A stretch of DNA of 64,000 nucleotides from Gammaproteobacteria bacterium. GTDB taxonomy: Bacteria; Pseudomonadota; Gammaproteobacteria; Burkholderiales; Rhodocyclaceae. The position numbers and the translations under genes are program-made. Below, in pieces: positions 1 to 24,291 of this stretch (position 1 is its first letter; each line of letters opens with the position of its first letter). Below the pieces are notes generated by a model. The model did not search any database and was not told the origin of the DNA. It saw only the letters and a list, made by a program, of their open reading frames with translations. The DNA is taken from assembly GCA_018824085.1 (NCBI GenBank), contig JAHJHI010000023.1, positions 1-64,000 of the forward strand. The letters run 5' to 3'.

Positions 1-375
1 ACGTAGCTGAACATCGACGTCTGGGGATTCTCTTGGCCGCGCATGGAAAATCTGGAAAAGTAGAAGAACGATTCGAGGTGAAAGTCTGCCTCAAAACCCG
101 CGCCCGGAAACAGGAGCGGAGTTTCTCACCAGCCTGCTAGGCCATCGTCCGACCGGACAAATTGTCAACAATGTTCCCATTCTGTCTGCGCCGCCGCCGG
201 GTGACGCAGCGGAGCGGATTCGCCTGAACGGCAAGGTTTCCATTCATAAACAGCGGCTTGGAATTTGTCCTCGCGCCTGGTACGGCACTTGCGAAAGGTC
301 GGTCGACCCGATCGGATGTCCGATTGAACGACTGCGGCAGCCCCGGCTGCCGATTCTTGACGCCAGGAGAACACC
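1..375. other. Upstream non-coding region with operator-like dyads and a sigma-54 promoter
   Basis: I see no convincing gene here. At 161-172 there is a perfect dyad, ATTGT-CA-ACAAT, overlapped on its left by a second one, GACAA-A-TTGTC. Dyads of this kind are typical of GntR-family operators, but the regulator is not identified. About 110 bases further on lies the -24/-12 element annotated separately. The first 160 bases show nothing recognisable. Confidence 0.5.
278..292 (+). promoter_or_regulatory. Sigma-54 (RpoN) -24/-12 promoter candidate
   Basis: TGGTACGGCACTTGC fits the consensus TGGCACG-N4-TTGC with one mismatch. The invariant GG (279-280) and GC (291-292) are exactly 10 bases apart. 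Transcription would begin near 304, about 70 bases before the TTG start of the OsmC-like gene. No enhancer-binding-protein site was identified with confidence; the dyad at 161-172 is a possible one. Confidence 0.6.
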
Positions 376-924
376 TTGACCACCGCCAGCACCGAAACCG
401 TCAAAACCCGTCTGCGCCCGATCGATCGCGACGGGCTGCTCAAATTCGCCGCCGCCGGCCGCGAAAATCCGTCACGCAAGGGCACCAACAAGGTTCATAC
501 GGTGATGCAGGGCCAGTTCCGCTCATGGAGCTTCGTCGGCATCCACAACCCGGTCGTCGTCGACGAACCGCTGCACCTGTTCGGCGAGAACACCGCGCCG
601 GCGCCGGGCGAGATCGTGCTGTCGGCACTGGGCGGCTGCCTGTGCGTGGGCATCACCGCCGTGGCCACCCATCGCCAGATTCCGCTGTCGCGGCTCGAGG
701 TGTTCCTTGAGGCGGACATCGGCAACACCGCCGCCTGGGGCGCCGACGGCGCCGAACGCAAGCCCGGCGAAATGGGCTTCCAGGACATCCGCGTGAAGGT
801 GCTCATCGAAGGCGAAGCGAGCCGCGAGCAGCTGGACGACATCGTGCAGTGGGCCAACTTCTGCTCGCCGGTCGCCAACTCGATGCGCAACCCGATTCCG
901 TTCTCCATCTCGCTGGCGGACTGA
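376..924 (+). CDS. OsmC family peroxiredoxin-like protein
   Basis: A 182-residue OsmC/Ohr-fold protein. This family reduces organic hydroperoxides with a pair of cysteines, and the paired residues here are Cys88/Cys90 (in LGGCLCVG) and Cys163 (in NFCSPVANS). The start is TTG at 376, chosen because AGGAGA lies five bases upstream at 365-370 and no better ATG is in frame. It is the first gene after a sigma-54-type promoter, and an acyl-CoA-dehydrogenase-like gene follows after 30 bases. In this setting it may handle a reactive by-product of the neighbouring oxidoreductases, but that is inference. The fold assignment is firm and the substrate is unknown. Confidence 0.85.
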   Translation: MTTASTETVKTRLRPIDRDGLLKFAAAGRENPSRKGTNKVHTVMQGQFRSWSFVGIHNPVVVDEPLHLFGENTAPAPGEIVLSALGGCLCVGITAVATHRQIPLSRLEVFLEADIGNTAAWGADGAERKPGEMGFQDIRVKVLIEGEASREQLDDIVQWANFCSPVANSMRNPIPFSISLAD

Positions 925-954
925 ACACCCCCGGCAACACATGGAGAACCCGTC

Positions 955-2097
955 ATGAATCCGGCCGACGCAAGCGCGCTTGCATTCGATCCTTCCCGGT
1001 CCGACGCGCAGGTGATCGCGCAGGTCACCGCTGTCGCCGACGGCGCGCTGGCCGACGCCGCCTTCCGCATCGACCACGAAGGCCACTATCCGCTCGACAT
1101 CATGGCCAGCCTGGGCGAGGCGGGCGCGTTCGCGGCCCACCTCGACCGCAACGGCGCGCGCTTCGGCCTGGCCATCGACGCGATGCGCGCCATCAGCCGC
1201 CGCTGCGGCTCGACCGGCTTCCTGGCCTGGTGCCACGACGTGTGCGGCCTGTACATGGAACAGTCCGGCAACCCGGCGCTGGGCGGCGACGTGCTCGACG
1301 CGCACGCCAGCGCCCGTACGTTCGGCGGCACCGCGCTGTCGAATCCGATGAAGGCGCTCGCCGGCATCGAAAAGATGCTGCTGCGCGCGACCCGCGTGCC
1401 CGGCGGCTACCGGGTCAGCGGCGCGCTGCCCTGGGTCAGCCACATTGCGCGCGGCCAGTACTGCGGCGCCATCGCCGGCGTGTATCGCGACGACGGCAGC
1501 CTGTCGCACGAAGTCATGTTCCTGCTGCGTTTCACCGACGATGTCGCGCTGCGGCCCTGCCCGGCGTTCTCGGGCATGGAGGGCACCAGCACCTGGGGCG
1601 TGCGGCTGGACGGCCACTTCGTCGGCGAGGACGCGCTGATCGCCGATCCGGCGCGCCCCTTCCTCGCGCGCATCCGCGCCGCCTTCGTGCTGCTGCAGGC
1701 CGGCATGGCGATCGGTGTCGCGCAGGGCAGCATCGATTCCATGCTGGAAGTCGAGCCGGTGCTCGGCCATGTGAACCGCTACCTCGACGACCGGCCGGAC
1801 GCGCTGCAGGCAGAGTTCGACGAACTGGGCGCGCGCGTGGCGAAGCTGTCGCTGACCCCGTATGACGGCAGCAAGGACTTCCTGCTCGATGTGCTCGATG
1901 TCCGCACGCAGGGTGCGGAACTCGCGTTGCGCGCGTCGCAGTCCGCGCTGCTGCATCAGGGGGCGCGCGGCTACCTGATGAATTCGGCGCCGCAGCGGCG
2001 CATCCGAGAAGCGCATTTCATCGCCATCGTGACGCCGGCGATCAAGCACCTGCGCTGGGAAATGGCGCGCCTGAGCGCCGACGAGGTGCCGGCATGA
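955..2097 (+). CDS. Acyl-CoA dehydrogenase-like flavoprotein
   Basis: A 380-residue protein with the acyl-CoA dehydrogenase layout: an N-terminal helical domain (about 1-120), a central beta domain (about 130-230, with [14 protein letters not shown]) and a C-terminal helical domain ending in [18 protein letters not shown]. Members either dehydrogenate acyl-CoA thioesters or, in the DszC/nitroalkane-oxidase-like branch, act as flavin monooxygenases or oxidases on small S- or N-containing compounds. No CoA-pathway genes are nearby. A rubredoxin-reductase fusion directly follows, with its ATG overlapping this stop, so I favour the non-CoA branch. GGAGAA at 943-948 supports the ATG. The substrate is unknown. 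Confidence 0.75.
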
Positions 2098-3440
2098 ACA
2101 CCGCCGCCGCGCCGTGGAAACAGTTCCTGTGCCGCGCCTGCGGCTTCATCTACGACGAGGCGAAGGGCGACCCGGACAGCGGCATCGCGCCCGGCACGCG
2201 CTTCGACGACATCCCGGATGACTGGGCGTGTCCGCTGTGCGGCGTCGTGAAGGCCGATTTCGAACCGTATGAACCCGCCGTCGCCGTCTCCTGCGGCCAG
2301 GCCGCGGCCGCGCCTTCGCGCGATGCCGGCATCGTCATCGTCGGCGCCGGCATCGCCGGCTGGTCGGCGGCCGAAGCGCTGCGCGCGCTCGACCCGGCCG
2401 TGCCGATCACGCTGGTCAGCGCCTGCGCCGGCGACCGCTATCACAAGCCGGAACTGTCGATCGCGCTCGGCCGTGGCCTCGTGCCGCAGACGCTGGTGCG
2501 CGAAACGGCCGCGCAGGCCGCCGCGCGGCTCGGGCTGCGCCTGCTGACCGACACCTTCATCGTCGGCCTGTCACCCGCGCTGCACCGCCTGCGCACCACG
2601 CGCGGCACCTTGCGCTATACCCGCCTCGTGCTGGCGCAGGGCGCGCGACCCGCGCTGCCGGCGGCGCTGCCGCCCGGGCTGTGCCGGCGGGTGAATGATC
2701 TGGCCGGCTGGTCCGCGCTGCAGCGCGCGCTGTCCGGCGCGAGCCGCCGGGTGGCCATCGTCGGCGCCGGCATGGTCGGTTGCGAACTGGCCGAGGACTT
2801 CGCCCGCGCCGGCCACGCGGTGACGCTGATCGACGTGCAGGCGCAGCCGCTCGCCGCGCTGTTGCCGCCGCTCGCCGCACACCGGCTGCGCGTGAGCCTG
2901 GAAGCGCAGGGCGTGCGCTTTGCCGGTTCGACGCAGGTGGCCGGCGTCGTCGTCACGGCCGGCGGCGGCAAGCGGATCACCACCGCCGCCGGCTCGACCA
3001 TCGACGTCGATGAAATCGTTGCGGCGACCGGGCTGGTCACCGACGGGCGCATCGCGCGTGCCGCCGGCCTCGCCTTCGAGCGCGGCATCGTCGTCGATGC
3101 GCGCACGCTGCAGACCAGCGCCGCCGATGTCTACGCGCTGGGGGACTGCATCAGCCTGGACGGGGCGCCGTGCCGCTTCATCGAACCGGTCGCCAGACAG
3201 GCCGGCGTCATCGCGCACGCCGCGCTCGGGCGGCCGCACGCCGCCTATGAACATCGTCACCCGGTCATCCGGCTGAAAACGCAGGCGCTGTCCGTCGTGC
3301 TGCACGGCCAGCCTTGCGCCGACGGCGAATGGCGTGTGACCGACGAGCGCCCGGAACGGCTCGCGATGCAGCAATGGCGCAACGGCGAGGTGGTGGCGAC
3401 GCTGGAGGCGGGCAGCCCGCCGCAGCGCGTCGCCGCCTGA
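2094..3440 (+). CDS. Rubredoxin-rubredoxin reductase fusion (FAD/NAD(P) oxidoreductase)
   Basis: A 448-residue fusion. Residues 10-58 form a rubredoxin with iron ligands Cys13, Cys16, Cys46 and Cys49 (LCRACGF and WACPLCG). From about residue 78 there is an FAD-dependent pyridine-nucleotide oxidoreductase with two Rossmann motifs, [17 protein letters not shown] for FAD and [17 protein letters not shown] for NAD(P), and a C-terminal [12 protein letters not shown] motif. It should pass electrons from NAD(P)H through FAD to its own rubredoxin and on to a partner. The start overlaps the stop of the acyl-CoA-dehydrogenase-like gene (ATGA), so that flavoprotein is the likely electron acceptor. The partner is inferred from position only. 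Confidence 0.88.
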
Positions 3441-3484
3441 CGGCCATCCGCAACAGATTTTCCACATCCACAGGTGCCCGGAAC

Positions 3485-4867
3485 ATGAACGACGACAACC
3501 TCTATCGCCCCTATGACGCCGGCACCGCGCTCGGCCGTTGCGCCTGCGGCCGCCACGCGAGCCAGCACGATCACGACGCCGATGCGGCGCGCACCCGCCT
3601 GCGGCGCGGGGAGCACGCCGACACGCTGGGCAGCGACTTCGTGGAAGCGGCGCTGGTGCGTGCGCTGTTCCCGCGCGACGCCGAGCGGCGCGGCTTCCTG
3701 CGCGCGGTCGGCGCCGGCACCGCGATGGCGGCCATCGCCGCCATGCTGCCGGTATCCGACCTGCAGGCCATGATGCAGGAGAAGACCGGGCCGATCGAGA
3801 AGAAGGACCTGACGGTGGGCTTCCTGCCGATCACCTGCGCGACGCCCATCATCTTCGCCGGCGCCGCCAACTTCTACGCCCGAGAAGGGCTGGACGTCAC
3901 GCTGCAGAAGACGGCCGGCTGGGCCATCGTGCGCGACAAGGTGCTGGCGAAGGAATACGACGCCTCGCACATGCTGTCGCCGATGCCGCTGGCAAGCTCC
4001 ATGGGCATCGGCTCGACCGCATCGCCGATGGTGATGCCGCTGATGGAAAACACCAACGGCAACGCCATCACGCTGCACGCGAAGCACATCGACAACCGCG
4101 ATCCGAAGAACTGGAAGGGCATGAAGTTCGCCATTCCGTTCGAGTTCTCGATGCACAACTTCCTGCTGCGCTACTACCTCGCCGCGCACGGGCTGGACCC
4201 GGACCGCGACGTGCAGCTGCGCGTCATGGCGCCGCCGGACATGGTGTCCAACCTGCGCTCCGGCAACCTCGACGGCTTCATCGTCGCCGAGCCGTTCAAC
4301 CAGCGCGCCGTCTACGAGAAGGTCGGCTTCATCCACATGCTCACCAGCGAGATCTGGGACAACCATCCGTGCTGCGCCTTCGCCGCCACCGAAAGCTTCG
4401 TCGGCCAGAATCCGAACACCTTCGCCGCGCTGGTGCGTTCCATCATCCGCGCCACCGCGCACGTGAACAAGGCGGAAAACCGCAAGGGCGTGGCGGCGAT
4501 GATCGCGCCGTCGAACTACCTGAACCAGCCGCTGACCGTCGTCGAGCAGGTGCTGATCGGCCGCTACGCGGACGGGCTCGGCGAGGTGCGCAACGAACCG
4601 AACCGCATCGCCTTCGATCCCTTCCCCTGGCACTCCATGGGCGTGTGGATGCTGACGCAGATGAAGCGCTGGGGCTACATCAAGGGCGACGTGAACTACC
4701 GCGACATCACCGAGCGCGTCTATCTCGCCACCGACGCGCAGAAGCGCATGGCCGAACTCGGCATGACGGCGCCGGCGCAGACCTACAGGAAGCACATGAT
4801 CCTCGGCAGGGAGTTCGACCCGGCCGCGCCCGAGGCCTATCTGAAGAGCTTCGCCAGCGGCGCCTGA
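3485..4867 (+). CDS. NrtA/CmpA-family periplasmic binding protein, Tat-exported
   Basis: A 460-residue substrate-binding protein of the nitrate/bicarbonate/cyanate ABC family. A Tat-type signal (ERRGFLRAVG) is followed by a hydrophobic Ala-rich stretch, starting near residue 62 after an unusually long Cys/His-containing leader (RCACGRHASQHDHD). The mature part begins near KKDLTVGFLPITCATPIIFA and includes GNLDGFIVAEPFNQRAV, a typical family segment. I chose ATG 3485, 44 bases after the reductase stop; in-frame codons upstream lie inside the preceding gene. No permease or ATPase gene is in this window. Its ligand is probably a small nitrogen compound, given the amidase next door, but the sequence does not settle this. 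Confidence 0.82.
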   Translation: MNDDNLYRPYDAGTALGRCACGRHASQHDHDADAARTRLRRGEHADTLGSDFVEAALVRALFPRDAERRGFLRAVGAGTAMAAIAAMLPVSDLQAMMQEKTGPIEKKDLTVGFLPITCATPIIFAGAANFYAREGLDVTLQKTAGWAIVRDKVLAKEYDASHMLSPMPLASSMGIGSTASPMVMPLMENTNGNAITLHAKHIDNRDPKNWKGMKFAIPFEFSMHNFLLRYYLAAHGLDPDRDVQLRVMAPPDMVSNLRSGNLDGFIVAEPFNQRAVYEKVGFIHMLTSEIWDNHPCCAFAATESFVGQNPNTFAALVRSIIRATAHVNKAENRKGVAAMIAPSNYLNQPLTVVEQVLIGRYADGLGEVRNEPNRIAFDPFPWHSMGVWMLTQMKRWGYIKGDVNYRDITERVYLATDAQKRMAELGMTAPAQTYRKHMILGREFDPAAPEAYLKSFASGA

Positions 4868-4961
4868 CGGCATGCAGCGCGGCGCTCCGCACAGGTGCGC
4901 CACGCACCCGCGGCGTGCGGCGGCGCGCCGGGGTGACATTGATTTGCAAGGCTATTTCCTC

Positions 4962-4976
4962 TGGCACGAATGATGC
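4962..4976 (+). promoter_or_regulatory. Sigma-54 (RpoN) -24/-12 promoter candidate upstream of the amidase
   Basis: TGGCACGAATGATGC matches TGGCACG-N4-TTGC with a single mismatch. GG at 4963-4964 and GC at 4975-4976 are separated by exactly 10 bases. Initiation would fall near 4988, 40 bases before the amidase ATG. This is the best -24/-12 match I found in the window, and it implies that the amidase can be transcribed separately from the upstream genes. Confidence 0.7.
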
Positions 4977-5027
4977 GACGCCCCATGCGGTGTTTCACAT
5001 TCCACCCCTTCCAGAAGGAGCGAGCGC

Positions 5028-6512
5028 ATGTCCAGCTGCACCCACCCGGCACACCAGCACTGCAGTTTCTGTGACGCAAAAGGCCGTCTGACCGTACAGG
5101 TCGATGGCAACGGCGAACCGGCGCTCGACGCGCCGGCGCCGCCCGATCCGGCGCGGCGCGGTCTGCTGAAGGGCTCGATCGCGGCCGGCATCGGCACGCT
5201 GGGCGCCGGCTGGGTGGGCAGCTCGATGGCGCACGACAAGGACGGGTCGATGAAGACACGCAACCACTTCTACATCCCGGCCTCCGCCGACACCGTGCAT
5301 TGGGGCTACTTCAGCAAGTCGCTCACGCCGCAGGTGGAGATCGAGCCGGGTGACTTCGTCACCATCGAAACGCTGACCCACCACGCGGGCGACGACTTCG
5401 ACCGCATGATCAAGGGCGACCCCGGCGCCGAAAGCGTCTTCTACTGGGACAAGAAACGGAAGGGCGTCACGCGCCGCGGCGCCGGCCCGATGGACGCGAG
5501 CCTGTTCGGGCGCGGCGCGGGCGAGGGCCTGGGCGTGCACATCTGCACCGGACCGGTGTACGTGAAGGGCGCCGAGGAGGGCGACGTGCTGGAGGTGCGC
5601 ATCGTCGACGTCGCGCCGCGCCCGAGCGCCAACGCCAAGTACAAGGGCAAGAGCTTCGGCGTGAATGCGGCGGCCTGGTGGGGCTTCCACTTCAAGGACC
5701 TCATCACCGAGCCGAAGGAACGCGAAGTCATCACCATCTACGAGATCGACGCGGCCAGCGAGAAGAACTGGGCGCAGGCCGTCTACAACTTCCGCTGGAC
5801 GCCGCAGACCGATCCGTTCGGCGTCGTGCACAGCAAGATCGATTACCCCGGCGTCATTGTCGACCACTCGACGGTGACGGAAAACCACGGCGTGCTGAAG
5901 AACATCCGCGTGCCGACGCGGCCGCACTTCGGCGTCAGCGGCGTGGCGCCGAAGGAAGCCGACATGGTCGACTCCATCCCGCCCAGCTACACCGGCGGCA
6001 ACATCGACAACTGGCGCATCGGCAAGGGCGCGACGATGTACTACCCGGTCGCGGTCAAGGGCGCGCTGTTCTCGGTCGGCGACCCGCACGCCGCGCAGGG
6101 CGACTCCGAGCTGTGCGGCACGGCGATCGAGTGCTCGCTCACCGGCACCTTCCAGTTCATCCTGCACAAGAAGGCCGACCTCGCCGGCACGTCGCTGGAA
6201 AAGCTCGAATACCCGCTGCTGGAAACGCAGGACGAGTGGGTCATCCACGGCTTCAGCTTCGCCAACTATCTGGAAGAACTGGGCCCCAAGGCGCAGAGCG
6301 ACATCTACGCCAAGTCCTCGGTCGACCTCGCGCTGCGCGACGCCTTCCGCAAGACGCGCACCTTCCTCATGGACACCAAGGGGCTGACCGAGGACGAAGC
6401 GATCTCGCTGCTCACCGTCGGCGTCGACTTCGGCGTCACCCAGGTGGTCGACGGCAACTGGGGCGTGCACGCGGTGATCAGGAAGGCGCTGTTCTCCGGC
6501 GGCAGCCTGTAG
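5028..6512 (+). CDS. Formamidase/acetamidase family protein with Tat signal
   Basis: A 494-residue acetamidase/formamidase-family enzyme, which hydrolyses short amides to ammonia and a carboxylate. Family features include NHFYIPASADTVHWGYFSK near the mature N terminus, GDFVTIETLTHHAGDD, HICTGPVYVKGAEEGDVLEV and FSVGDPHAAQGDSELCGTAIE. A Tat-type motif (ARRGLLKGSIAAG) sits near residues 42-54 behind a Cys/His-rich leader (SSCTHPAHQHCSFC), so export to the periplasm is likely; many family members are cytoplasmic. AAGGAG lies 8 bases before the ATG. A strong sigma-54 promoter precedes it. Whether formamide or another amide is the substrate is not shown. Confidence 0.88.
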   Translation: MSSCTHPAHQHCSFCDAKGRLTVQVDGNGEPALDAPAPPDPARRGLLKGSIAAGIGTLGAGWVGSSMAHDKDGSMKTRNHFYIPASADTVHWGYFSKSLTPQVEIEPGDFVTIETLTHHAGDDFDRMIKGDPGAESVFYWDKKRKGVTRRGAGPMDASLFGRGAGEGLGVHICTGPVYVKGAEEGDVLEVRIVDVAPRPSANAKYKGKSFGVNAAAWWGFHFKDLITEPKEREVITIYEIDAASEKNWAQAVYNFRWTPQTDPFGVVHSKIDYPGVIVDHSTVTENHGVLKNIRVPTRPHFGVSGVAPKEADMVDSIPPSYTGGNIDNWRIGKGATMYYPVAVKGALFSVGDPHAAQGDSELCGTAIECSLTGTFQFILHKKADLAGTSLEKLEYPLLETQDEWVIHGFSFANYLEELGPKAQSDIYAKSSVDLALRDAFRKTRTFLMDTKGLTEDEAISLLTVGVDFGVTQVVDGNWGVHAVIRKALFSGGSL

Positions 6513-12694: not shown

Positions 12695-13711
12695 TCAGGT
12701 CGCCTTGCGCAGCACGATGCGCCCGGCCATGCCGGCGCAGCCGAAGGCTTCGAAGCGGTCCACGCACAGGTCGCGCGCAGCGGCGGTGGCGGCTTTCAGG
12801 AACTTGCGCGGATCGAATTCGGACGGGTTGTGCGCCATCGCGCGGCGCATGGCGCCGGTCATCGCGAGCCGGATGTCGGTGTCGATGTTGATCTTGCGCA
12901 CGCCGTGGCGGATGCCTTCCTGGATCTCCTCGACCGGCACGCCGTAGGTTTCCTTGATGTCGCCGCCATGCTCGCGAATGATGGCCAGCCATTCCTGCGG
13001 CACGCTGGATGAGCCGTGCATGACCAGGTGGGTGTCCGGGATGCGTGCGTGGATGGCCTTGATGCGGTCGATCGCGAGGATGTCTCCGGTCGGGCGGCGC
13101 GAGAACTTGTAGGCGCCGTGGCTGGTGCCGATGGCGATCGCCAGCGCGTCGACGCCGGTGCGCGCGACGAAGTCGGCGGCCTGTTCCGGGTCGGTCAGCA
13201 TCTGCTCGTGCGTCAGCACGCCTTCGGCGCCGACGCCGTCCTCCTCGCCGGCGGTGCCCGATTCGAGCGAACCGAGGCAGCCGAGTTCGCCTTCGACCGA
13301 CACGCCCACCGCGTGCGCGATGTCGACCACACGGCGCGTCACGTCGACGTTGTAGTCGTAGCTGGCGGGCGTCTTCGCGTCTTCCATCAGCGAGCCGTCC
13401 ATCATCACGCTGGTGAATCCGGAGCGGATGGACTGCACGCACACGGCCGCGCTGGCGCCGTGGTCCTGGTGCATGACGACCGGGATGTCCGGATACATTT
13501 CGACGGCCGCCTCGACCATCCTGCGCAGGAAGGGCTCGCCCGCGTAGCTGCGCGCGCCGGCCGAGGCCTGCAGGATGACCGGGCTGCCGGTCTGCGCGGC
13601 GGCCTGCATGATGGCCTGTATCTGTTCGAGGTTGTTCACGTTGAATGCCGGCACGCCGTAGCCGTGTCCGGCTGCATGGTCCAGCAGGTGCCGCAGGGAA
13701 ATCATCGCCAT
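12695..13711 (-). CDS. cbbA: Fructose/sedoheptulose-bisphosphate aldolase, class II
   Basis: A 338-residue zinc-dependent class II aldolase. It opens with [25 protein letters not shown] and has the zinc/active-site segments [42 protein letters not shown] and [14 protein letters not shown]. In the Calvin cycle it joins triose phosphates to fructose-1,6-bisphosphate, and DHAP plus erythrose-4-phosphate to sedoheptulose-1,7-bisphosphate. GGAG lies 6 bases before the start. It is the last gene of the cbb operon, 56 bases after the GAPDH-like gene. Confidence 0.95.
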
Positions 13712-13767
13712 TTGAAACTCCGGTTGTCAGGGAAATTCGGGAAAGGGCTGGTGTGCCACGGCGTTGC

Positions 13768-14658
13768 TCAGGCGTGCGCCATGGCCCGCGCGGTGTCGAC
13801 CAGCCGGTGCGCAAAGCCGTGGTCGCCGCGGTAGCCGGCGCACACTTTCACGACGCGGCCGGACACCTGCGTCCAGCCGGCTTCGAACACGCTGGAACGC
13901 GTGTCGCGATCGGCCAGCGCCGTGGTGAGAGGGGTGTCGCCGTAGCGCAGGATGCCGGCATACGGCCCGAAGGCGGCGCACTGCATCAGCGCGTTCACCT
14001 CGTCGACGCTGGTGGCGCGCTGCGCGACGAACACCATGCCGATCAGTGACGCGTGCACGCCGGGCATGCGCATCGGTTCGGTTTCGTCGAAGCAGTGGTC
14101 CAGCTCCGGCAGCACGCGGTGCAGGTGCTCGGCGGCGCCGGTGCGCATCGGCAGCGCGAAGTCGTCGTCGCCGTCGCCGTCATGGCGGCGGCTGTGCACC
14201 GCCGTCAGCATCGCGTTGGAGATGCCCAGCGCCTCGTGCAGCACGCGCGCCACCGGTGCGATGCAGTGCGTTGCGCGGCAGGCGCTGTCCACGGCGCGGT
14301 GCGTGTCGCGCAGCGCGCCGTGATTCACACCGTAGACGACGGTGGCGTCGGCAGCCGTGGCGGCCGGCGCGCAGCTCAGCACCTTGCGCGCGCCGGCCGC
14401 CAGATGCGCCCGCGCATCCCGCCCCGTACAGTCGAGCACGATGTCAATCGCGTGCCGCTTCCAGGGCAGGCGGCGGGCATCGCGCACGCGGCTCAGTGCG
14501 ACGCCGGCACCCCCGGCATCGCGCAGCGCCGCGGGGGCGCGGGGAGCGCCGGCCGCGTTGATCGCCACCAGCTGCAGACCGTCGGCGCCACGCAGCGCCG
14601 CCAGCACGCTGTGCGCGATGCGCCCGTCGCCGGCCACGGCGATGCGTGTCGCGGCCAT
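13768..14658 (-). CDS. Degenerate glyceraldehyde-3-phosphate dehydrogenase-like protein
   Basis: A 296-residue GAPDH homologue, shorter than the usual 330 or so. Along its length it keeps recognisable GAPDH landmarks: AVAGDGRIAHSVL for the NAD site, LVAINA, DIVLDCTG, VLSCAPA, TVVYGVNH, CIAPVARVLHEALGI, TAVHS (the catalytic His region), TGAAEHLHRVLPEL and HRLVDTA. The catalytic ASCTTNC motif is rewritten as ACRATHC, so an Arg lies where the nucleophilic Cys should be, with a Cys one place earlier. It occupies the cbbG position and overlaps the cbbT stop (TGATG), so it is still translated in the operon. It may be inactive, altered in chemistry, or regulatory. It is not an obvious pseudogene, because the frame is intact. 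Confidence 0.75.
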   Translation of the reverse strand: MAATRIAVAGDGRIAHSVLAALRGADGLQLVAINAAGAPRAPAALRDAGGAGVALSRVRDARRLPWKRHAIDIVLDCTGRDARAHLAAGARKVLSCAPAATAADATVVYGVNHGALRDTHRAVDSACRATHCIAPVARVLHEALGISNAMLTAVHSRRHDGDGDDDFALPMRTGAAEHLHRVLPELDHCFDETEPMRMPGVHASLIGMVFVAQRATSVDEVNALMQCAAFGPYAGILRYGDTPLTTALADRDTRSSVFEAGWTQVSGRVVKVCAGYRGDHGFAHRLVDTARAMAHA

Positions 14659-16730
14659 CAGGCGGGCAGCGACTGCGCGGCGCGCGGTTCGGCGCCGCCC
14701 GCCGTGTCCAGCAAGGCGCAGGCGCGCGCCGCGACGGCTTCGGGCGTGATGCCGAACAGCGCGAACAGTTCGCCCGCCGGGGCCGATTCGCCGAAGCGGT
14801 CCAGTCCGACGACGTCGCCGGTGACGCCTTCCTCGCCGACGTACTTCCACCACAGCGCGCTCGTGCCGGCGTCGATGGCGACACGCGGCAGATGGCGCGG
14901 GATGACGTCACGGCGGTAGTGCGCGTCCTGCCGCTCGAATGCCTCCCAGCAAGGCATGGACACGACGCGCGCCGCAATGCCCTGCGCCGCCAGCAGGTCC
15001 GCGGCGCGCAGCGCGATGCCGACTTCCGAGCCGGTGGCCAGCAGGCACACGCGTTCGCCGCGCGGGCGGCGCAGCACATAGCCGCCGCGCGCGATGTCCG
15101 CGATGCGCACCGCGCCGTCGCCGGCATGCGGCAGCGCCTGGCGCGACAGCAGCAGGCAGCTCGGGCCGGGTCGCGGCGAAGCCGGGCGGCGCAGCGATTC
15201 ACGCCATGCGACAGCGGTTTCGGTGGCGTCGCACGGGCGCCAGACATCGACGCCGGGAATCAGGCGCAGGCTGGCGGCATGTTCCACCGGCTGGTGGGTG
15301 GGACCGTCCTCGCCCAGACCGATGGAGTCGTGCGTGAACACATGCACCACCGGCAGCTGCATCAGCGCCGACATGCGGATGGCGTTGCGCGCGTAGTCCG
15401 AGAACGTGAGGAAGGTGCCGCCGTACGGGCGGTAGCCGCCGTGCAGCGCGACGCCGTTCATGATGGCAGCCATGCCGAACTCGCGCACGCCGTAGTGCAC
15501 GTGGTTGCCGGTGCCGGCGCCCTTGAGCGGACGGTGGCCCTTCCAGTCGGTCAGGTTGGAGCCGGTCAGGTCGGCCGAGCCGCCGAGCAGTTCCGGCATG
15601 GCTGGCGCGATGATGTGCAGCGCGTCCTGCGACGCCTTGCGCGTGGCGACCGCGCCGGCGCGCAGTTCGGCCGCGTCGCACGCCGCCTCCAGCGCGCGCA
15701 GCGCATCGGAGGTCAGCGAGGCGTCGCGCGGCAGGCGGCGCGACAGTTCGGCCGCCAGCTCCGGAAAGGCCCGCGCGTAGTGGTCGATGCGCTGCTGCCA
15801 GCTGCGGTGCGCAGCGGCACCGCGCTCGCGTGCCGACCACGCGGCGGCGATGGCGGGCGGGATGTCGAATGGCGGTGCATGCCAGCCGAGCGCTTCGCGG
15901 GTGAGCGCGATCTCCGCCTCGCCCAGCGCCTCGCCGTGCGCCTTGGCGGTGCCGGCGCGGTTGGGGGAGCCCTGGCCGATGCGCGTTTCGCAGCAGATGA
16001 GGACCGGGCGCTCGCTGCGCAGCGCGGTTTCGATGGCGCCGTCGAGCGCGATCGGGTCATGGCCGTCGACCGCACGCACGACCGTCCAGCCGCAGGCCTC
16101 GAAGCGCGCCGGCGTGTCGTCGGTGAACCAGCCGGCCACGTCGCCGTCGATGGAAATGCCGTTGTCGTCGTAGAAGGCGACCAGCTTGTTCAGCTTCCAC
16201 GTGCCGGCGAGCGAGCACACCTCATGGCTGATGCCTTCCATCAGGCAGCCGTCGCCGAGAAAGACCCAGGTGCGGTGGTCGATCACCGTGTGGCCCGGGC
16301 GGTTGAATTCGGCGGCGAGCAGCTTCTCCGCCAGCGCCATGCCGACCGCGTTGGCGAGGCCCTGGCCGAGCGGGCCGGTCGTGGTTTCGACACCCGGCGT
16401 GATGTCGACCTCGGGGTGGCCCGGCGTGCGTGAATGAAGCTGGCGGAAGCGGCGCAGCTCGTCCATCGGCAGGTCGTAGCCGCTGAGGTGGAGCAGGGCG
16501 TACAGCAGCATGGAACCGTGGCCGTTGGACAGCACGAAGCGGTCGCGGTCAGGCCAGTGCGGGTCGGCCGGGTCGTGCTTCAGGTGATGGCGCCACAGCG
16601 CTTCGGCGATGTCGGCCATGCCCATCGGCATGCCGGGGTGGCCCGAGTTGGCCGCCTGCACGGCGTCCATCGCGAGCGCGCGCAGCGCGTTGGCGCACTG
16701 CGTGCGCAGGTGGAGGTTGGCATCGGTCAT
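14658..16730 (-). CDS. cbbT: Transketolase
   Basis: A 690-residue thiamine-diphosphate enzyme, full length for the family. The ThDP signature is GDGCLMEGISHEVCSLAG, followed by FYDDNGISIDG. The pyrimidine-binding region has GGYRPYGGTFLTFSDYARNA, and substrate-site segments include NSGHPGMPMG, PLGQGLANAVGMA and THDSIGLGEDGPTHQPVEH. It moves two-carbon units to regenerate xylulose-5-phosphate and ribose-5-phosphate in the Calvin cycle. It lies 13 bases after cbbP and its stop overlaps the next start. Confidence 0.96.
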   Translation of the reverse strand: MTDANLHLRTQCANALRALAMDAVQAANSGHPGMPMGMADIAEALWRHHLKHDPADPHWPDRDRFVLSNGHGSMLLYALLHLSGYDLPMDELRRFRQLHSRTPGHPEVDITPGVETTTGPLGQGLANAVGMALAEKLLAAEFNRPGHTVIDHRTWVFLGDGCLMEGISHEVCSLAGTWKLNKLVAFYDDNGISIDGDVAGWFTDDTPARFEACGWTVVRAVDGHDPIALDGAIETALRSERPVLICCETRIGQGSPNRAGTAKAHGEALGEAEIALTREALGWHAPPFDIPPAIAAAWSARERGAAAHRSWQQRIDHYARAFPELAAELSRRLPRDASLTSDALRALEAACDAAELRAGAVATRKASQDALHIIAPAMPELLGGSADLTGSNLTDWKGHRPLKGAGTGNHVHYGVREFGMAAIMNGVALHGGYRPYGGTFLTFSDYARNAIRMSALMQLPVVHVFTHDSIGLGEDGPTHQPVEHAASLRLIPGVDVWRPCDATETAVAWRESLRRPASPRPGPSCLLLSRQALPHAGDGAVRIADIARGGYVLRRPRGERVCLLATGSEVGIALRAADLLAAQGIAARVVSMPCWEAFERQDAHYRRDVIPRHLPRVAIDAGTSALWWKYVGEEGVTGDVVGLDRFGESAPAGELFALFGITPEAVAARACALLDTAGGAEPRAAQSLPA

Positions 16731-16743
16731 CGTGGCGGCTCCT

Positions 16744-17634
16744 TCAGACGGGCAGTTGCTGGCGGCGGCGTTCGAGCAGGCGCAGGATCATCGGCGTGAA
16801 GATGAGCTGCATCGCGAGTTCCATCTTTCCGCCCGGCACCACCAGCGTGTTGGCGCGCGACATGAAGGAGTCGTGCAGCATGCTGAGCAGATACGGGAAG
16901 TCGAAGCCGCGCGGATTGGCGAAGCGGATGACGACGAGGCTTTCGTCGGCGGTCGGGATGGTGCGGGCGATGAACGGGTCGGACGTGTCCACCACGGGCA
17001 CGCGCTGGAAGTTGATGTGGGTGCGCGTGAATTGCGGGCAGATGTAGTGCACGTAGTCGTGCATGCGGCGCAGGATGACGTCGGTCACGGCTTCGGTGGA
17101 ATAGCCGCGGGTGCTGCGGTCCCGATGGATCTTCTGGATCCATTCGAGGTTGATGACAGGCACCACGCCGATCAGCAGATCGGCGTACCGGGATACATCA
17201 ACATGTTCTGTCTTCACTCCGCCGTGCAGCCCCTCGTAGAACAGCAGGTCGCTCGCCGGCAGCGGCTCCCAGGGCGTGAAGGTGCCGGCGGGTTGCGCGT
17301 ACGGCGCGGCTTCCTCGTCGTTGTGCAGGTACTTGCGGCTGCGCCCGCTGCCGGTTTCGGAGTAGTCGCGGAACAGGTTCTCCAGCTCGGCGAACAGGTT
17401 GGCGTCCTCGCCGAAATGGCTGAAGTGCGGGCACACGGGCGAGCCGTCGCCGCCTTCGGCCTGCGCCATGACGCGCTTCATTTCATTGCGGTCGTAGCGG
17501 TGGTAGCTGTCGCCCTCGATGACGGCCGCCGTGATGTTCTCGCGGCGGAAGATGTTGTCGAAGGTGCGCGTGACCGACGTGGTGCCGGCGCCGGACGAGC
17601 CGGTGATGGAAACGATGGGGTGTCTGGCTGACAT
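16744..17634 (-). CDS. cbbP: Phosphoribulokinase
   Basis: A 296-residue proteobacterial (octameric-type) phosphoribulokinase. Residues 8-20 carry the P-loop VSITGSSGAGTTS; SYHRYDR, the Walker-B-like DLLFYEGLHGG and WIQKIHRDRSTRGYS are family segments. It phosphorylates ribulose-5-phosphate with ATP to give the RubisCO substrate ribulose-1,5-bisphosphate, so it is specific to the Calvin cycle. It lies between cbbF and cbbT in the operon. Confidence 0.97.
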   Translation of the reverse strand: MSARHPIVSITGSSGAGTTSVTRTFDNIFRRENITAAVIEGDSYHRYDRNEMKRVMAQAEGGDGSPVCPHFSHFGEDANLFAELENLFRDYSETGSGRSRKYLHNDEEAAPYAQPAGTFTPWEPLPASDLLFYEGLHGGVKTEHVDVSRYADLLIGVVPVINLEWIQKIHRDRSTRGYSTEAVTDVILRRMHDYVHYICPQFTRTHINFQRVPVVDTSDPFIARTIPTADESLVVIRFANPRGFDFPYLLSMLHDSFMSRANTLVVPGGKMELAMQLIFTPMILRLLERRRQQLPV

Positions 17635-17686
17635 GGTGACCTCGGATATGCGGAATGCGTGGGCAGCGCGGCGCGCGCGCTGCCGC

Positions 17687-18760
17687 CTAGACGGCGTCGG
17701 CGAACAGGCCGCGCTTGCCGAACAGCGGCGCCTGATAGGTGTCCGGCGGCGGTTCGCGGTGATAGGCCTCGATGCGTGCGACTTCCTCGCGCGAGCCGAA
17801 CACGAAGCCGATGCGCTGGTGCAGCGCCTCCGGCTGCACGTCCATCAGGCGGGCGCGGCCGGTGCTCGCCATGCCGCCCGCCTGTTCGATCAGGAAGGCG
17901 ATCGGGCTGGCTTCGTAGAGCAGGCGCAGGCGGCCCGGCTTCGACGGATCCTTGCTGTCTTTCGGGTACATGAACACGCCGCCGCGCATCAGGATGCGGT
18001 GCGTCTCGGCGACCAGCGAGGCGATCCAGCGCATGTTGAAGTCAGCGCCACGCGGGCCGGATCTGCCGGCCAGGCATTCATCGACGTAACGGCTGACCGC
18101 CGGCTCCCAGAAACGGCTGTTGGAGGCGTTGATGGCGAATTCGCGCGTCGTCTCCGGCACCTTCAGGTCGGGATGGCTGAGCACCCACTCGCCCAGCACG
18201 GGGTCGAGCGTGAAGGCGTGCGTGCCCCGGCCCAGCGTCAGCACGAGCATGGTCGACGGGCCGTAGATCGCATAGCCGGCGCACACCTGCCGCGTGCCCG
18301 GCTGCAGGAAGTCGGCGGTGACCGCGTCCTCGCCCGGCCGGACCGCACGCACGATGGAGAAGATGCTGCCGACCGACACGTTGACGTCGATGTTGGACGA
18401 GCCGTCCAGCGGGTCGAACGAGAGCAGGTAACGACCGCGCGGGTATTCCGCCGGCAGCAGCTGGATGTCGTCCATCTCTTCCGAGGCCATGCCGGCGACG
18501 TGGCCGCCCCACTCGTTGGCGCGCAGGAAGATCCGGTTGCTCAGCACGTCGAGCGTCTTCTGCTCCTCGCCCTGCACGTTGCCGCTTCCCGCCGAGCCGA
18601 GCACGCCGGCCAGGCCGCCGAACGCGACCTTGCGCGATATCGCCTTGCACGCCAGCGCGACGTCGGTGATCAGCGCGTTCAGCTCGCCGGTGGCGTCCGG
18701 GTGACGGCGGCGTTCTTCTATCAGGTACTGAATCAGTGTGGTGCGTCCGCCTGTGGGCAT
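17687..18760 (-). CDS. cbbF: Fructose-1,6-/sedoheptulose-1,7-bisphosphatase, class I
   Basis: A 357-residue class I FBPase. The metal-binding signature is [20 protein letters not shown], and the C-terminal part has [30 protein letters not shown] broken into typical substrate-site segments such as [20 protein letters not shown]. It dephosphorylates fructose-1,6-bisphosphate and, in autotrophs, often sedoheptulose-1,7-bisphosphate. AGGAGGAG stands 7 bases before the ATG, one of the strongest ribosome sites in this operon. Position between cbbZ and cbbP supports a Calvin-cycle role rather than gluconeogenesis. Confidence 0.96.
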
Positions 18761-18806
18761 CGTGGTCTCCTCCTGTTTTTGTCGGTCCGGCGCGGCGCGC
18801 CGCGCC

Positions 18807-19496
18807 CTATTCGGCTTCTTCGTAGCGCGACGTCATTTCCATCAGCAACTGCGACGGTGACGCGATGTGCCAGGGCCGTACGTCGTCCGGCACGCCGTGT
18901 GCGCCATAGCCCCAGCCGACCAGCGCCACCGGGCAGCCGGCGTTGCGCGCGGCGAGCAGGTCTGCCGCGCTGTCGCCCACCATGAGCAGCTGCGCGGGCT
19001 TCACGCAGAGTTGCGCGGCGGCGGCGTCGAGCAGCGCCGGCGACGGTTTGGTCTGCGCGGCGGTGTCCGCGCCGTGCACCGAGGACATGAAGGGCAGCAG
19101 GCCGGCGGCGGCGAGTACCGCCTGCGCCAGCGGCGTCGGCTTGTTGGTCACGACGACCAGCGGGCACACGGCGTACAGGCCTTCCACCATTTCCTCGATG
19201 CCGTCGAACACCATGCCGTGGTCGAGCGGTGCGTCCAGCGTCGCGCGGTCGAACGCGGCGCGCAGCGTGGCGTGCAGCGAGCCGTCGCCGTCCTCGCGCT
19301 TGAGATGGACGAGCGCGCGCCGGATCAGCAGGTCCGGGCCGCCGCCTATCCAGCTGCGCGTGGTGGCCAGATCGACGCCGGGCAGGCAGCTGTTCTCGAG
19401 CGCGGTGTTGAGCGCGTTCCAGATGTCAGGGGCGCTGTCGACCAGCGTGCCGTCGAGGTCGAAGGCGATGGCGTGGATGCGGTTCAGGTCAAACAT
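18807..19496 (-). CDS. cbbZ: Phosphoglycolate phosphatase
   Basis: A 229-residue HAD-superfamily phosphatase. The nucleophile motif is [20 protein letters not shown] near residue 10, motif [11 protein letters not shown], and motif [21 protein letters not shown]. In cbb operons this gene removes 2-phosphoglycolate formed when RubisCO reacts with O2. ATG 19496 was chosen because it gives the normal [17 protein letters not shown] opening; upstream in-frame codons lie within cbbE. Its start overlaps the end of cbbE by 8 bases. Confidence 0.93.
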
Positions 19497-20193
19497 GGGC
19501 AGGGTCTCCGGAAGTGCGTGCGGCGCGCCCGGCGAGCGCGTTGTCGCGCAGCGCGCTGATCGATTGTGCGTAGTGCCCGCCGGTGAATACGGCCGAGCCG
19601 GCGACCAGCGTGTCGGCGCCGGCGGCGCCGACGCGTGCCGCGTTGCCGGCATTCACGCCGCCGTCGACTTCCAGCCATACGTCGCGCCCGCTGGTGTCGA
19701 TGCGCCGGCGCACGGCTTCGATCTTGGGCAGCACCGATTCGATGAAACGCTGTCCGCCGAAGCCGGGATTGACCGACATCAGCAGCACCAGATCGAGCTG
19801 GTCGAGCACGTGGTCGAGCACCGACAGCGGTGTGGCGGGGTTCAGCACCAGACCGGCGCGCACGCCGTGCGAGCGGATGAGCTGCACCGTGCGGTCGATG
19901 TGTTCGCTCGCTTCGGGATGGAAGGAAATGATGGAGGCGCCGGCCTGCGCGAACATCGGAATCAGCGCGTCCACCGGCTTCACCATGAGGTGCACGTCGA
20001 TCGGCACCGTGGCCCAGGGCTTGATCGCCTCGCACACCAGCGGGCCGACCGTCAGGTTGGGCACGTAGTGGTTGTCCATCACGTCGAAATGGATGAGGTC
20101 GGCGCCGGCGTCGATGACGGCGGCAACCTCGGCGCCGAGGCGGGCGAAATCGGCCGACAGCAGGCTGGGCGCGATGCGCATGGGCGCCGTCAT
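19489..20193 (-). CDS. cbbE: Ribulose-phosphate 3-epimerase
   Basis: A 234-residue TIM-barrel epimerase. Family motifs are [14 protein letters not shown] at the N terminus, [17 protein letters not shown] with a metal ligand, [29 protein letters not shown] and LEVDGGVN. It interconverts xylulose-5-phosphate and ribulose-5-phosphate. The start at 20193 overlaps the cbbY stop by 4 bases (ATGA) and gives the normal N terminus. Length is as expected plus a short C-terminal tail. Confidence 0.96.
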
Positions 20194-20978
20194 GACAGTG
20201 CGCCCTCGCCGGAGCGCGCGGCGAGCCGGCACAGCTCGCCGAAGCCCAGCCAGGGCTGGTCGCGCAGCCGACGGCCGGGTTCCTGCGCCAGCGGATGCGC
20301 GGCGTCGCCCAGATGCGGCAGCAGCAGGCCGGCGTCGGCGAAGTCGCCGTCCTCGCTCCAGAAGGTGGGCGTCACCACGGTCCACAGCCCGGCCGCGCGT
20401 GCGGCGGCGAGGCCGTTGGCGGAGTCCTCGAAGGCGATGGCGTGGTCGGCGCGCACGCCCAGGTGCTGCAGCGCGAGCAGGTAGATGTCGGGCGCCGGTT
20501 TCTTGTGTGCCACCTGGTCGCCGCAGGCGATGACGCCGAACGGTTCGAGCGCGCGCGGCCCCAGCGTTGCGTGCAGCAGCGCGTCGACATTGACGGCCGT
20601 GGTGGTGCTGGCGATGGCGAGCCGGCATCCGGCGTGGCGTGCCTCGTCCAGCAGGCGTGCCACGCCCGCGCGCAGCGGCACCGCGCCGTCGCGCACCACG
20701 GCGCTGTAGAAGCGCGTCTTCGCCGCATGGATCTGCGGTATCAGCGCGCGCAGGCGCGCGCGCTCCGCGTCGTCCGTGTCGAGTGTGGCGATGTGCCGGG
20801 CCATCCTCTCCTTGCCGCCGGTGGTGGCGAGCAGCGCGCGGTAGTCGGTGCGGCTCCATTTCCAGTCCAGGCCGCAGCGCTCGAATGCGAGATTGAAGGC
20901 GGTGCGGTGGGCTTCTTCGGTGTCGGCAAGCGTGCCGTCGACGTCGAATATCAATGCGTCGATGCGTGTCGTCTGCAT
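20190..20978 (-). CDS. cbbY: CbbY, HAD-family xylulose-1,5-bisphosphate phosphatase
   Basis: A 262-residue HAD hydrolase of the CbbY type. The nucleophile motif is [20 protein letters not shown] near residue 10; TTGGKERM (cap), [10 protein letters not shown] (motif II), [17 protein letters not shown] and [16 protein letters not shown] (motif IV) are all typical. CbbY is known to degrade xylulose-1,5-bisphosphate, a misfire product of RubisCO that inhibits it, so this gene works with cbbX in keeping RubisCO active. It is one base after cbbX and overlaps cbbE. Confidence 0.94.
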
Positions 20979-20979
20979 G

Positions 20980-21885
20980 TCAGTCCTCCAGTCCGGCGGG
21001 GCGACCGAACACGCGGCTGGCGAGCACGTCTTCCGCCTGCAGCGTGCACAGCGCGTCGCGCCCGGGTGCTTCGTCGAGCGCGAACAGCCGGGTCGCGTGG
21101 CGCAGCCGGATGCGGTCGAGCGCGTTGCGCACGGAACGCGCGTTGGCGAAATGCGGCTGGTCGCGCCGCAGCCCGACGTAGCGCGCGAAGGCGGTGCGCG
21201 CGCCGTCGTCGAAGCGGTAGTTCAGCTTGCCCAGCATCAGCTGCGCGATGCGCATCAGCTCTTCCTCGCTGTAGTCGGGGAAGTCGATGTGGTGCGCGAT
21301 GCGCGACGCCATGCCGGGGTTGCTGGAGAAAAAGGTGTCCATGCGGTCGCGATAGCCGGCGAGGATCACCACCAGATCGTCGCGGTTGTTCTCCATCACC
21401 TGCAGCAGGATTTCGATGGATTCCTGGCCGTAGTCGCGCTCGTTCTCCGGCCGGTAGAGGTAATAGGCCTCGTCGATGAAGAGCACGCCGCCCATCGCCC
21501 GCTTGATGACCTCCTTGGTCTTGGGCGCGGTGTGGCCGATGAACTGGCCCACCAGGTCGTCGCGCGTGACCGCCACCAGATGGCCCTTGCGCACATAGCC
21601 GAGCTGCCTGAGCACTTCGGCCATGCGCATGGCCACCGTCGTCTTGCCGGTGCCGGGATTGCCGGTGAAGCACATGTGCAGCGAGGGCGGTTGCGACTGC
21701 AGCCCCTGTTCGGTACGCAGCCGGTCGATCAGCAGCAGCGCGGCGATGTCGCGGATGCGGCCCTTGACCGGCGCCAGCCCGACCAGCTCGGCGTCGAGCT
21801 GGTCGAGCAGCGCCTGCACGCCGGAGGACTCGAACATCGAGCGCGGCGTGGCGGCGGGCGTGGTGGAGGCGGTGGCGCGGTCCAT
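20980..21885 (-). CDS. cbbX: CbbX, red-type RubisCO activase (AAA+)
   Basis: A 301-residue AAA+ ATPase. Walker A is GNPGTGKT at 75-82, Walker B is [15 protein letters not shown], and the second-region arginines are in [17 protein letters not shown] and [14 protein letters not shown]. CbbX releases inhibitory sugar phosphates from red-type RubisCO by pulling on the large-subunit C terminus. It is 13 bases after cbbS, the usual form IC order L-S-X. Confidence 0.97.
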
Positions 21886-21898
21886 GACGGTATCCGGC

Positions 21899-22318
21899 TC
21901 AGTAGCGCGCGCCTTCCGGGCGCGCCTGCACGGCGTAGCTTTCGATGCAGTAGCGCACCGTACGGCCGGCCTCTTCCGTGCGGACGAGGCGGAAGCCGGG
22001 CTCGGATGCCGGCCGGTTCACGATGAAGGACAGCACGACCGATTCGGTGCCGTGCGTGGCGTCGCTGGCGACCAGCCGGATGTAGTGCTGCGGGAAGGTG
22101 GCGCGGCAGTTGTTTACTTCCATGAGGATGGCGGCCGCGTCGCGCACGTCGAACATCGGCATGCCGAACATTTCCCAGAAGGTGTTGCGCGGGTGCGGGT
22201 CGTCCGTGTATTCGACGGCGAGCGCCCAGCCGCGGCCGAGGCAGTATTCGATCTGCGCGCTGATCTGCGCGTCGGTCAGTTCGGGCAGGAAGGAGAAGGT
22301 GCCTTGTGTGATGCGCAT
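21899..22318 (-). CDS. cbbS: RubisCO small subunit, form IC
   Basis: A 139-residue small subunit. It opens [16 protein letters not shown] and has the [33 protein letters not shown] region. The long C-terminal hairpin extension ending in [15 protein letters not shown] is a mark of red-type (form IC/ID) enzymes. It packs on the large-subunit core to form L8S8. The spacing to cbbL is 103 bases and holds no gene. Confidence 0.97.
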
Positions 22319-22421
22319 GGTGGTGCTCCTGTGGTGTCGGGTGGCAGCAATGCCGGATGCGGGCGGGCGCGGCGTGCCGTGGCGGGCACGCCGTCGCGCG
22401 GCGATGCGTGCAGCGGTTCGG

Positions 22422-24291
<1,870 letters not shown>

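Follow-up and report, generated by a model that had tools for sequence, protein, structure and literature searches.

The first 64,000 nucleotides of contig JAHJHI010000023.1 from a member of the Rhodocyclaceae (assembly GCA_018824085.1), referred to here as the window, begin with five genes in which an earlier reading of the letters alone, the original prediction, had seen a sigma-54-controlled pathway of organonitrogen scavenging. Here, by comparing the gene neighbourhoods of relatives, we find that three of the five form a conserved core, and we suggest that this core is probably the oxidative front end of a cyanate-assimilation regulon controlled by sigma-54 and a CynF-type activator, with cyanate as its product. 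The open reading frames and their translations place all five genes on the + strand. They encode an OsmC-like protein (376–924, with a TTG start; Pfam and NCBIfam match), a flavoprotein of acyl-CoA-dehydrogenase fold that we propose to be an oxygenase (955–2097; profile match and structure model), a fusion of rubredoxin with an NADH:rubredoxin-reductase-like pyridine-nucleotide-disulfide reductase as the proposed electron supply (2094–3440; Pfam and NCBIfam), a binding protein of the NrtA/CmpA/CynA kind and twin-arginine translocation (Tat) type (3485–4867; NMT1_2 domain, structural homology to NrtA/CmpA) and an FmdA-like amidase of the 3b9t type (5028–6512; Pfam FmdA_AmdA above cut-off, PDB entry 3b9t at an expect value (E) of 9.7e-220). 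The start of the fusion gene, at 2094, overlaps the stop of the flavoprotein gene. A −24/−12 motif, TGGTACGGCACTTGCG (278–293, + strand), conserved in relatives, is the candidate sigma-54 promoter of the core operon, and a second −24/−12-like motif, TGGCACGAATGATGCG (4962–4977, + strand), precedes the amidase gene. The common direction of the genes and the two motifs were thus correctly described, and the earlier domain calls agree with the Pfam, NCBIfam and PDB matches.

A single scan of species genomes, made with five aligned flavoproteins as the query, returned 234 relatives; we kept the best 80, each with as much as 10 kb of flanking sequence per side and many on short or cut contigs, and the counts below describe these closest relatives. 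Their genes were called by codon-usage scripts, and the counts of core and partner genes were made by translated search. An OsmC gene is present in 79 of the 80 loci and a rubredoxin-reductase gene in 73; OsmC and flavoprotein genes are same-strand neighbours in 78 of the 79 loci holding both, and flavoprotein and reductase genes are adjacent wherever both occur (73 of 73), with an overlap in 65 cases. These three, OsmC, the acyl-CoA-dehydrogenase-like flavoprotein and the rubredoxin-reductase, make up the conserved core. The invariable adjacency of the last two makes electron supply from the fusion to the flavoprotein, as first suggested, probable, and the notion of five genes in a single pathway gives way to a three-gene unit, since only the core stays together in the relatives' loci: when the set of five is sought in their genomes, the core recurs and the amidase does not accompany it. 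Judged by record titles, the core extends across Alpha-, Beta- and Gammaproteobacteria. The fusion gives way in six more distant loci to a separate rubredoxin of 60–70 amino acids, and in 9 of 20 further loci an AhpD-like protein stands in place of OsmC. The sole cyanobacterial locus, on a contig (L111) of Vulcanococcus limneticus, which we take to be a cyanobacterium, holds only the flavoprotein and OsmC, beside a distant ATP-binding cassette (ABC) transporter.

Bare −24/−12 motifs are no more frequent in the window than expected by chance (25 matches with at most two mismatches against 32.6 in shuffled sequence), so the window sequence alone did not establish sigma-54 control. What makes the promoter at 278–293 convincing is conservation at the same position in relatives. 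With motifs scored at two mismatches or fewer within 250 bases of a gene, and with at least 100 free bases taken as room for a promoter, 51 of 61 OsmC genes with room carry one, compared with 16 of 327 control genes; without the requirement for room the figures are 51 of 79 OsmC genes (a count that includes the window and a second copy in locus L047) and 34 of 616 other genes. Against the same 34 of 616, rhodanese genes have the motif in 15 of 17 cases and genes for NrtA-like proteins in 26 of 50. That second OsmC gene, with a sigma-54 motif of its own, lies at 19591–20145 of the Stutzerimonas stutzeri 24a75 locus, near the end of the fetched stretch, and may perhaps mark a second core.

Upstream of these promoters lies a dyad. 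Scored 160 to 40 bases upstream of the −24 element at no more than one mismatch, TTGTCGACAA occurs in 23 of 51 promoters of OsmC genes, in 8 of 25 of NrtA genes and in 7 of 15 of rhodanese genes. Control regions have it in 5 of 619 cases and sigma-54-like control motifs in 1 of 34, a contrast that is somewhat flattering because the sequence was picked from these same promoters. It was not seen in some groups, such as L035 and L038–L042. On the Marinobacter plasmid pMAD49a, which lies outside that set, a related repeat, ACATTGTCGGACATTGTC, and TGGCACAGCTCCTGCT precede OsmC, as judged by eye. The window copy, ATTGTCAACAAT (161–172, + strand), lies 116 bases upstream of the −24 element, differs from ATTGTCGACAAT at one position and is probably the activator-binding upstream activating sequence; of 11 dyad sites in its own genome at up to one mismatch, it is the only one so spaced from a sigma-54-like motif. 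The genome has one rpoN.

A candidate for the activator is at hand, for sigma-54 activators of one GAF-AAA-Fis family are encoded in 51 of the 80 loci. Their domain type is that of CynF, and they are CynF-like in this sense. The window's own genome carries a copy, 70% identical to the query, on contig C48, where it ends 137 bases before the contig does. Its stop codon is overlapped by a 20-base inverted repeat that recurs at 121–140 of the window (− strand), with exact matches at C48:181172-181191 and at both ends of C21. Since the same repeat lies at both ends of C21 and C48 and has near-matches on C48, C4 and C54, it looks like the terminal inverted repeat of an insertion sequence, and copies of one element seem to be where the assembly breaks. 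By analogy with the gene order in locus L034, activator and core are likely to be adjacent across the C48–C21 break. Conserved promoter, common dyad and a CynF-type activator in both relatives and own genome together bear out the sigma-54 control that had originally been proposed.

The partner that ties the core to nitrogen is cyanase. Translated search finds cyanase within 35 of the 80 loci, and cynS is present in 26 of the 36 loci that extend 7 kb or more to either side. Overall, 74 of the 80 flavoprotein-bearing genomes encode cyanase, 33 in the locus as judged by eye and 41 of the 47 others when searched genome-wide, one of these 41 being a fragment. For background, an evenly drawn sample of 399 genomes of the order, whose taxonomy differs from that of the 80 loci, contains cyanase in 90. 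Within that sample cyanase is found in 19 of 33 flavoprotein-positive and 71 of 366 flavoprotein-negative genomes (Fisher P = 5e-6), and among the 23 of these 33 whose neighbourhoods were viewed it accompanies 11 of 14 OsmC-type and none of 9 AhpD-type cores (P = 3e-4). The own genome holds the activator family, the −24/−12 promoter as a sequence motif, and cynABD with cynS, although its cynA-permease-ATPase-cynS operon (contig C7) and a persulfide-dioxygenase homologue (C52) both lie outside the window's contig. In its nitrogen-scavenging role, then, the original prediction is supported by the association with cyanate assimilation. Directly before the C7 operon (at 1257–1964 of the stretch L124) we observe a DJ-1/PfpI-family gene; its reading as an isonitrile hydratase was rejected, the match being at family level only and the DJ-1 marker being found in 2 of the 80 loci.

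Plasmids show the arrangement at its most compact. On pMAD49a an ABC transporter, a sigma-54 regulator, OsmC, flavoprotein, reductase and cynS follow one another, with the core directly preceding the cyanase gene. The pMAD49a binding protein shares 71% identity with its counterpart in L072 and 65% with that in L090, two loci in which the same transporter type accompanies the core and cynS, but only 27% with CynA; the compound that these three transporters import is probably not cyanate itself. A core of AhpD type is found on the Moraxella osloensis plasmid pNP7-5 (L170), where a rubredoxin-reductase-like protein and a transporter of CynA type (binding protein 49%) accompany it, so the OsmC and AhpD types are not wholly separate.

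The window's NrtA-like protein falls, with those of L027, L028, L144 and L146 and one of two each in L088 and L150, into a group that reads VAEPFNQ. Other such proteins near the core mostly read GPDPFNQ, APDPVNQ or APDNVVQ, some GPEPFNQ or GADPLNQ, and distant ABC binding proteins read VAEPFN or VADPFN. No permease or ATPase gene was recognised beside the NrtA-like gene in the window, L027, L028, L144 or L146. We place the gene only loosely in the module, as a second CynA-type binding protein, and our guess is that it provides a second specificity through shared CynB and CynD.

The core proteins themselves depart from their families in telling positions. The flavoprotein model has the acyl-CoA dehydrogenase fold (predicted local distance difference test score 92.7), and the protein is 15–20% identical to the best 50 solved structures matched, which are ordinary acyl-CoA dehydrogenases together with a small number of relatives, 3-sulfinopropionyl-CoA desulfinase among them. 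Thr360, invariant in 50 sequences, aligns with the C-terminal glutamate of acyl-CoA dehydrogenases (the IYEGT position), which we take to be their catalytic residue, and judged by eye there is no catalytic glutamate at the helix G position either; going by these alignments, the dehydrogenase base is lost. The OsmC group has one invariant cysteine in 33 sequences, Cys88, and an invariant Ser164 where the resolving cysteine is expected, if the register that we presume against canonical OsmC is right.

Sulfur genes recur beside the core. A metallo-beta-lactamase-fold protein is encoded in 20 of the 80 loci and a two-domain rhodanese in 19, never both in the same locus (P = 0.002 if independent), so that 39 loci have one or the other; among the 36 loci that extend 7 kb or more to either side the figure is 21. 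The former matches PDB entries 9g8t, 4ysk and 4efz (E < 1e-100; 3.7e-107 for 4ysk, presumably a persulfide dioxygenase) and also, though short of the cut-off for the full-length Blh model, the dioxygenase part of Blh, and we read it as a persulfide dioxygenase. TauE-type exporters occur in some loci, and none of the dioxygenase, rhodanese and TauE families is found in 265 kb of control DNA, a small sample that is not taxonomy-matched. In 16 of 18 family members the rhodanese gene stands directly before OsmC, which suggests that in such loci the promoter has moved in front of it, and on a Pseudosulfitobacter plasmid a sulfurtransferase 65% identical to the family follows the flavoprotein. In the window's genus, AhpD and ABC genes accompany a flavoprotein of 30% identity, and two of the four loci viewed have encapsulin 2A and its cysteine desulfurase alongside. 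These two, L033 (985–13231; identified by family search) and L030 (by shared gene families), place the AhpD operon beside the encapsulin, with hexapeptide-transferase and rhodanese genes as well, a gene content that marks a sulfur-acquisition setting for the AhpD-type paralogue; the other two loci carry genes for a lipase, an amidohydrolase and a TonB receptor instead.

An anion that yields both cyanate and sulfane sulfur is most simply thiocyanate. Because the core travels with genes for cyanate use and often with genes for sulfur oxidation, its most likely function would be to supply nitrogen by converting thiocyanate to cyanate, and we give thiocyanate itself about an even chance of being the substrate. 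In the mechanism that we propose, an ABC system would import a small anion, most likely thiocyanate; NADH would reduce the rubredoxin-reductase, which in turn would reduce the flavin of the dehydrogenase-fold protein; a flavin hydroperoxide would then oxygenate the sulfur of SCN− to give OSCN− or an equivalent; the single active cysteine of OsmC would take up the sulfur as a persulfide and release cyanate; cyanase would convert the cyanate to ammonia and CO2; and the dioxygenase or the rhodanese would clear the sulfur. For this reading as a whole, a cyanate-yielding front end with thiocyanate chemistry, we judge the balance to be roughly level. More tentatively, and at somewhat less than even chances, it would amount to a new O2-dependent enzymatic route to thiocyanate nitrogen, composed of a flavin oxygenase, a rubredoxin supply, a one-cysteine OsmC acceptor and cyanase within a CynF/sigma-54 regulon spread over three classes of Proteobacteria, plasmids included.

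Several observations weigh against this picture. To our knowledge, a dehydrogenase-fold oxygenase fed by rubredoxin would be an unfamiliar pairing. The neighbourhood associations are partly phylogenetic. No cyanase was detected in 6 of the 80 flavoprotein-bearing genomes, and in the order sample three OsmC-type genomes of one genus (G033, G166 and G323) lack a detected cyanase, a fourth member of that genus having one; cyanase activity alone is, moreover, no proof of a cyanate pathway (PMC5328954). Sigma-54 control is not universal, since 10 of the 61 OsmC genes with room have no motif, four of these being Acetobacter loci with a TetR-like gene instead. Neither dioxygenase nor rhodanese is present in 41 of the 80 loci, many of whose contigs are cut, and in the window itself no sulfur gene adjoins the core. 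Methylorubrum thiocyanatum, which has the core (L052), also encodes a protein like the gamma subunit of thiocyanate hydrolase (E 2.5e-108 to 2dd4 against 2e-56 to the best nitrile hydratase), and two other Methylorubrum genomes among 12 searched have genes of the nitrile hydratase (NHase)-alpha family; Cupriavidus plantarum LMG 26296 and Herbaspirillum frisingense GSF30, which have core and cyanase, were negative in that search. Reportedly, going by a 1998 title of Wood et al. as cited in PMC5328954, M. thiocyanatum grows on thiocyanate as nitrogen source; we set this phenotype aside as support, the hydrolase gamma being in the same genome. At 873–2522 of L156, in that organism, the gamma-like gene is preceded on the same strand by a gene for a 284-residue protein, which may hold the other hydrolase subunits. 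In favour of the thiocyanate reading, no NHase-alpha-family protein was found in the window's own genome (G000), and hence no thiocyanate hydrolase gamma.

The explanation offered at the outset was that a small nitrogen compound is oxidised to an amide, from which an exported formamidase releases ammonia. Adjacency in the window speaks for it, as do the second sigma-54-like motif there and a similar motif, at up to two mismatches, before 6 of 11 FmdA homologues in ten loci compared with 34 of 616 controls (P about 2e-5), a figure to be read knowing that four of the six belong to two pairs of close relatives and that the motif of the L166 copy lies at −207 before a doubtful start. The distribution of FmdA speaks against it. 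Translated search of the 80 loci found no FmdA near the core, and the only FmdA-like protein called there, in L088, has 30% identity. Among 250 genomes of the order, 14 have a 3b9t-type FmdA, and only the window's own is flavoprotein-positive at the threshold used; in ten loci from ten of the other 13, neither core genes nor an NrtA-like gene nor cyanase is present and any shared partner is confined to close relatives, two related loci having a sigma-54-activator-like gene six genes away. The amidase reaches 60 of 500 bits against the NCBIfam formamidase equivalog, short of its cut-off, and its N terminus looks Tat-like by eye, which would put it outside the cell while the oxidation would be cytoplasmic. 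With no association in either the 14-genome distribution or the ten neighbourhoods, we rejected the amidase as a partner of the core: it is probably a bystander, an independent and probably exported enzyme that may share nitrogen control. The amide step is thereby displaced by the cyanate product to which the comparison points, and we regard the pathway built on it as very improbable.

Three other explanations take the cyanate or sulfur association seriously. If the flavoprotein oxygenated HCN to cyanate for cyanase, with rhodanese and dioxygenase handling cyanide and sulfur traffic, the co-occurrence of cyanase and the presence of rhodanese would be accounted for; yet ABC systems flank the core, although HCN should need no ABC importer, the persulfide dioxygenase is left over, and genes for nitrilase or cyanide-insensitive oxidase were not noticed among recurrent neighbours, in a survey without a search aimed at them. 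We consider cyanide oxidation unlikely, and put in the same range the scavenging of sulfur from a different small organosulfur anion, one resembling a sulfonate, sulfinate or thiocarbamate, in which case cyanate assimilation would be a co-regulated neighbour only. The latter draws on the AhpD-type paralogues, which lie beside sulfur genes in two of four loci and whose genomes lack cyanase in 9 of 9 cases, and on weak matches of the flavoprotein to 3-sulfinopropanoyl-CoA desulfinase and DszC, but cyanase accompanies the OsmC-type systems in 74 of 80 genomes, and these systems have activator family, promoter and dyad in common with cyn operons. Less probable still is a protective module in which damage arising during cyanate use, from peroxide or carbamoylation, is repaired or detoxified by OsmC and the flavoprotein. 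The OsmC family is known for hydroperoxide reduction and the core is co-regulated with cyn genes, but the expected resolving cysteine is an invariant serine, and core and cynS occur with another transporter type on pMAD49a and in L072 and L090. Nitroalkane oxidation was also considered and rejected: no nitrite-reduction genes were noticed among the neighbours, again without a search aimed at them.

If the core does convert thiocyanate to cyanate, it would provide a third enzymatic thiocyanate route, marker genes for thiocyanate-rich wastewater plants, and functions for an unnamed dehydrogenase-fold family and a one-cysteine OsmC family. Whatever the substrate may be, a conserved operon emerges from the comparison, together with its likely activator and a candidate binding dyad.

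Elsewhere in the window, open reading frames on the − strand at 12700–23900 resemble, by their first residues, Calvin-cycle genes (aldolase, transketolase, phosphoribulokinase, CbbX and RuBisCO subunits), and several at 27400–51200 resemble, by eye, genes for [NiFe] hydrogenase and its maturation, which suggests a hydrogen-oxidising autotroph.

Among the matches listed in a search of open-licence literature by titles and abstract openings, no work joins OsmC, a flavoprotein of this kind and cyanate or thiocyanate. Heterotrophs of several genera use thiocyanate nitrogen, and the two enzyme routes named for it are thiocyanate hydrolase and thiocyanate dehydrogenase (PMC5328954). The hydrolase pathway, through carbonyl sulfide, would serve the same nutritional end with different proteins, the window's genome having no NHase-alpha family. 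The dehydrogenase pathway of Thioalkalivibrio would effect the same overall change that we propose, thiocyanate to cyanate and sulfane sulfur, through a thiocyanate:cytochrome c oxidoreductase (PMC5328954), whereas the enzyme suggested here is a flavoprotein using O2 and NADH for nitrogen supply; thiocyanate dehydrogenase is not among the PDB matches listed for three window proteins, the genome itself not having been searched with its sequence. In fold, the core flavoprotein resembles the monooxygenases and desulfinases DszC, HsaA and 3-sulfinopropanoyl-CoA desulfinase, which likewise do not carry out the dehydrogenase reaction, but it scores far below the cut-offs of those families. With OsmC/Ohr peroxidases the core OsmC has the fold family and one conserved cysteine in common, the second cysteine being an invariant serine here. 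The closest regulatory parallel is the cyn system of Pseudomonas pseudoalcaligenes, in which cynABDS depends on CynF as an essential regulator of sigma-54 type, cyanate is not used by a cynF mutant and a putative sigma-54 promoter precedes cynA (PMC6627978). The cynFABDS cluster of strain CECT5344 is like the core loci in its activator domain type, −24/−12 promoters, CynA-type proteins, permease, ATPase and cyanase. As described, in a text in which OsmC and acyl-CoA do not appear, it holds no core genes (PMC6627978); unlike CECT5344, the system described here has three further genes that form an operon of their own under the same kind of promoter.

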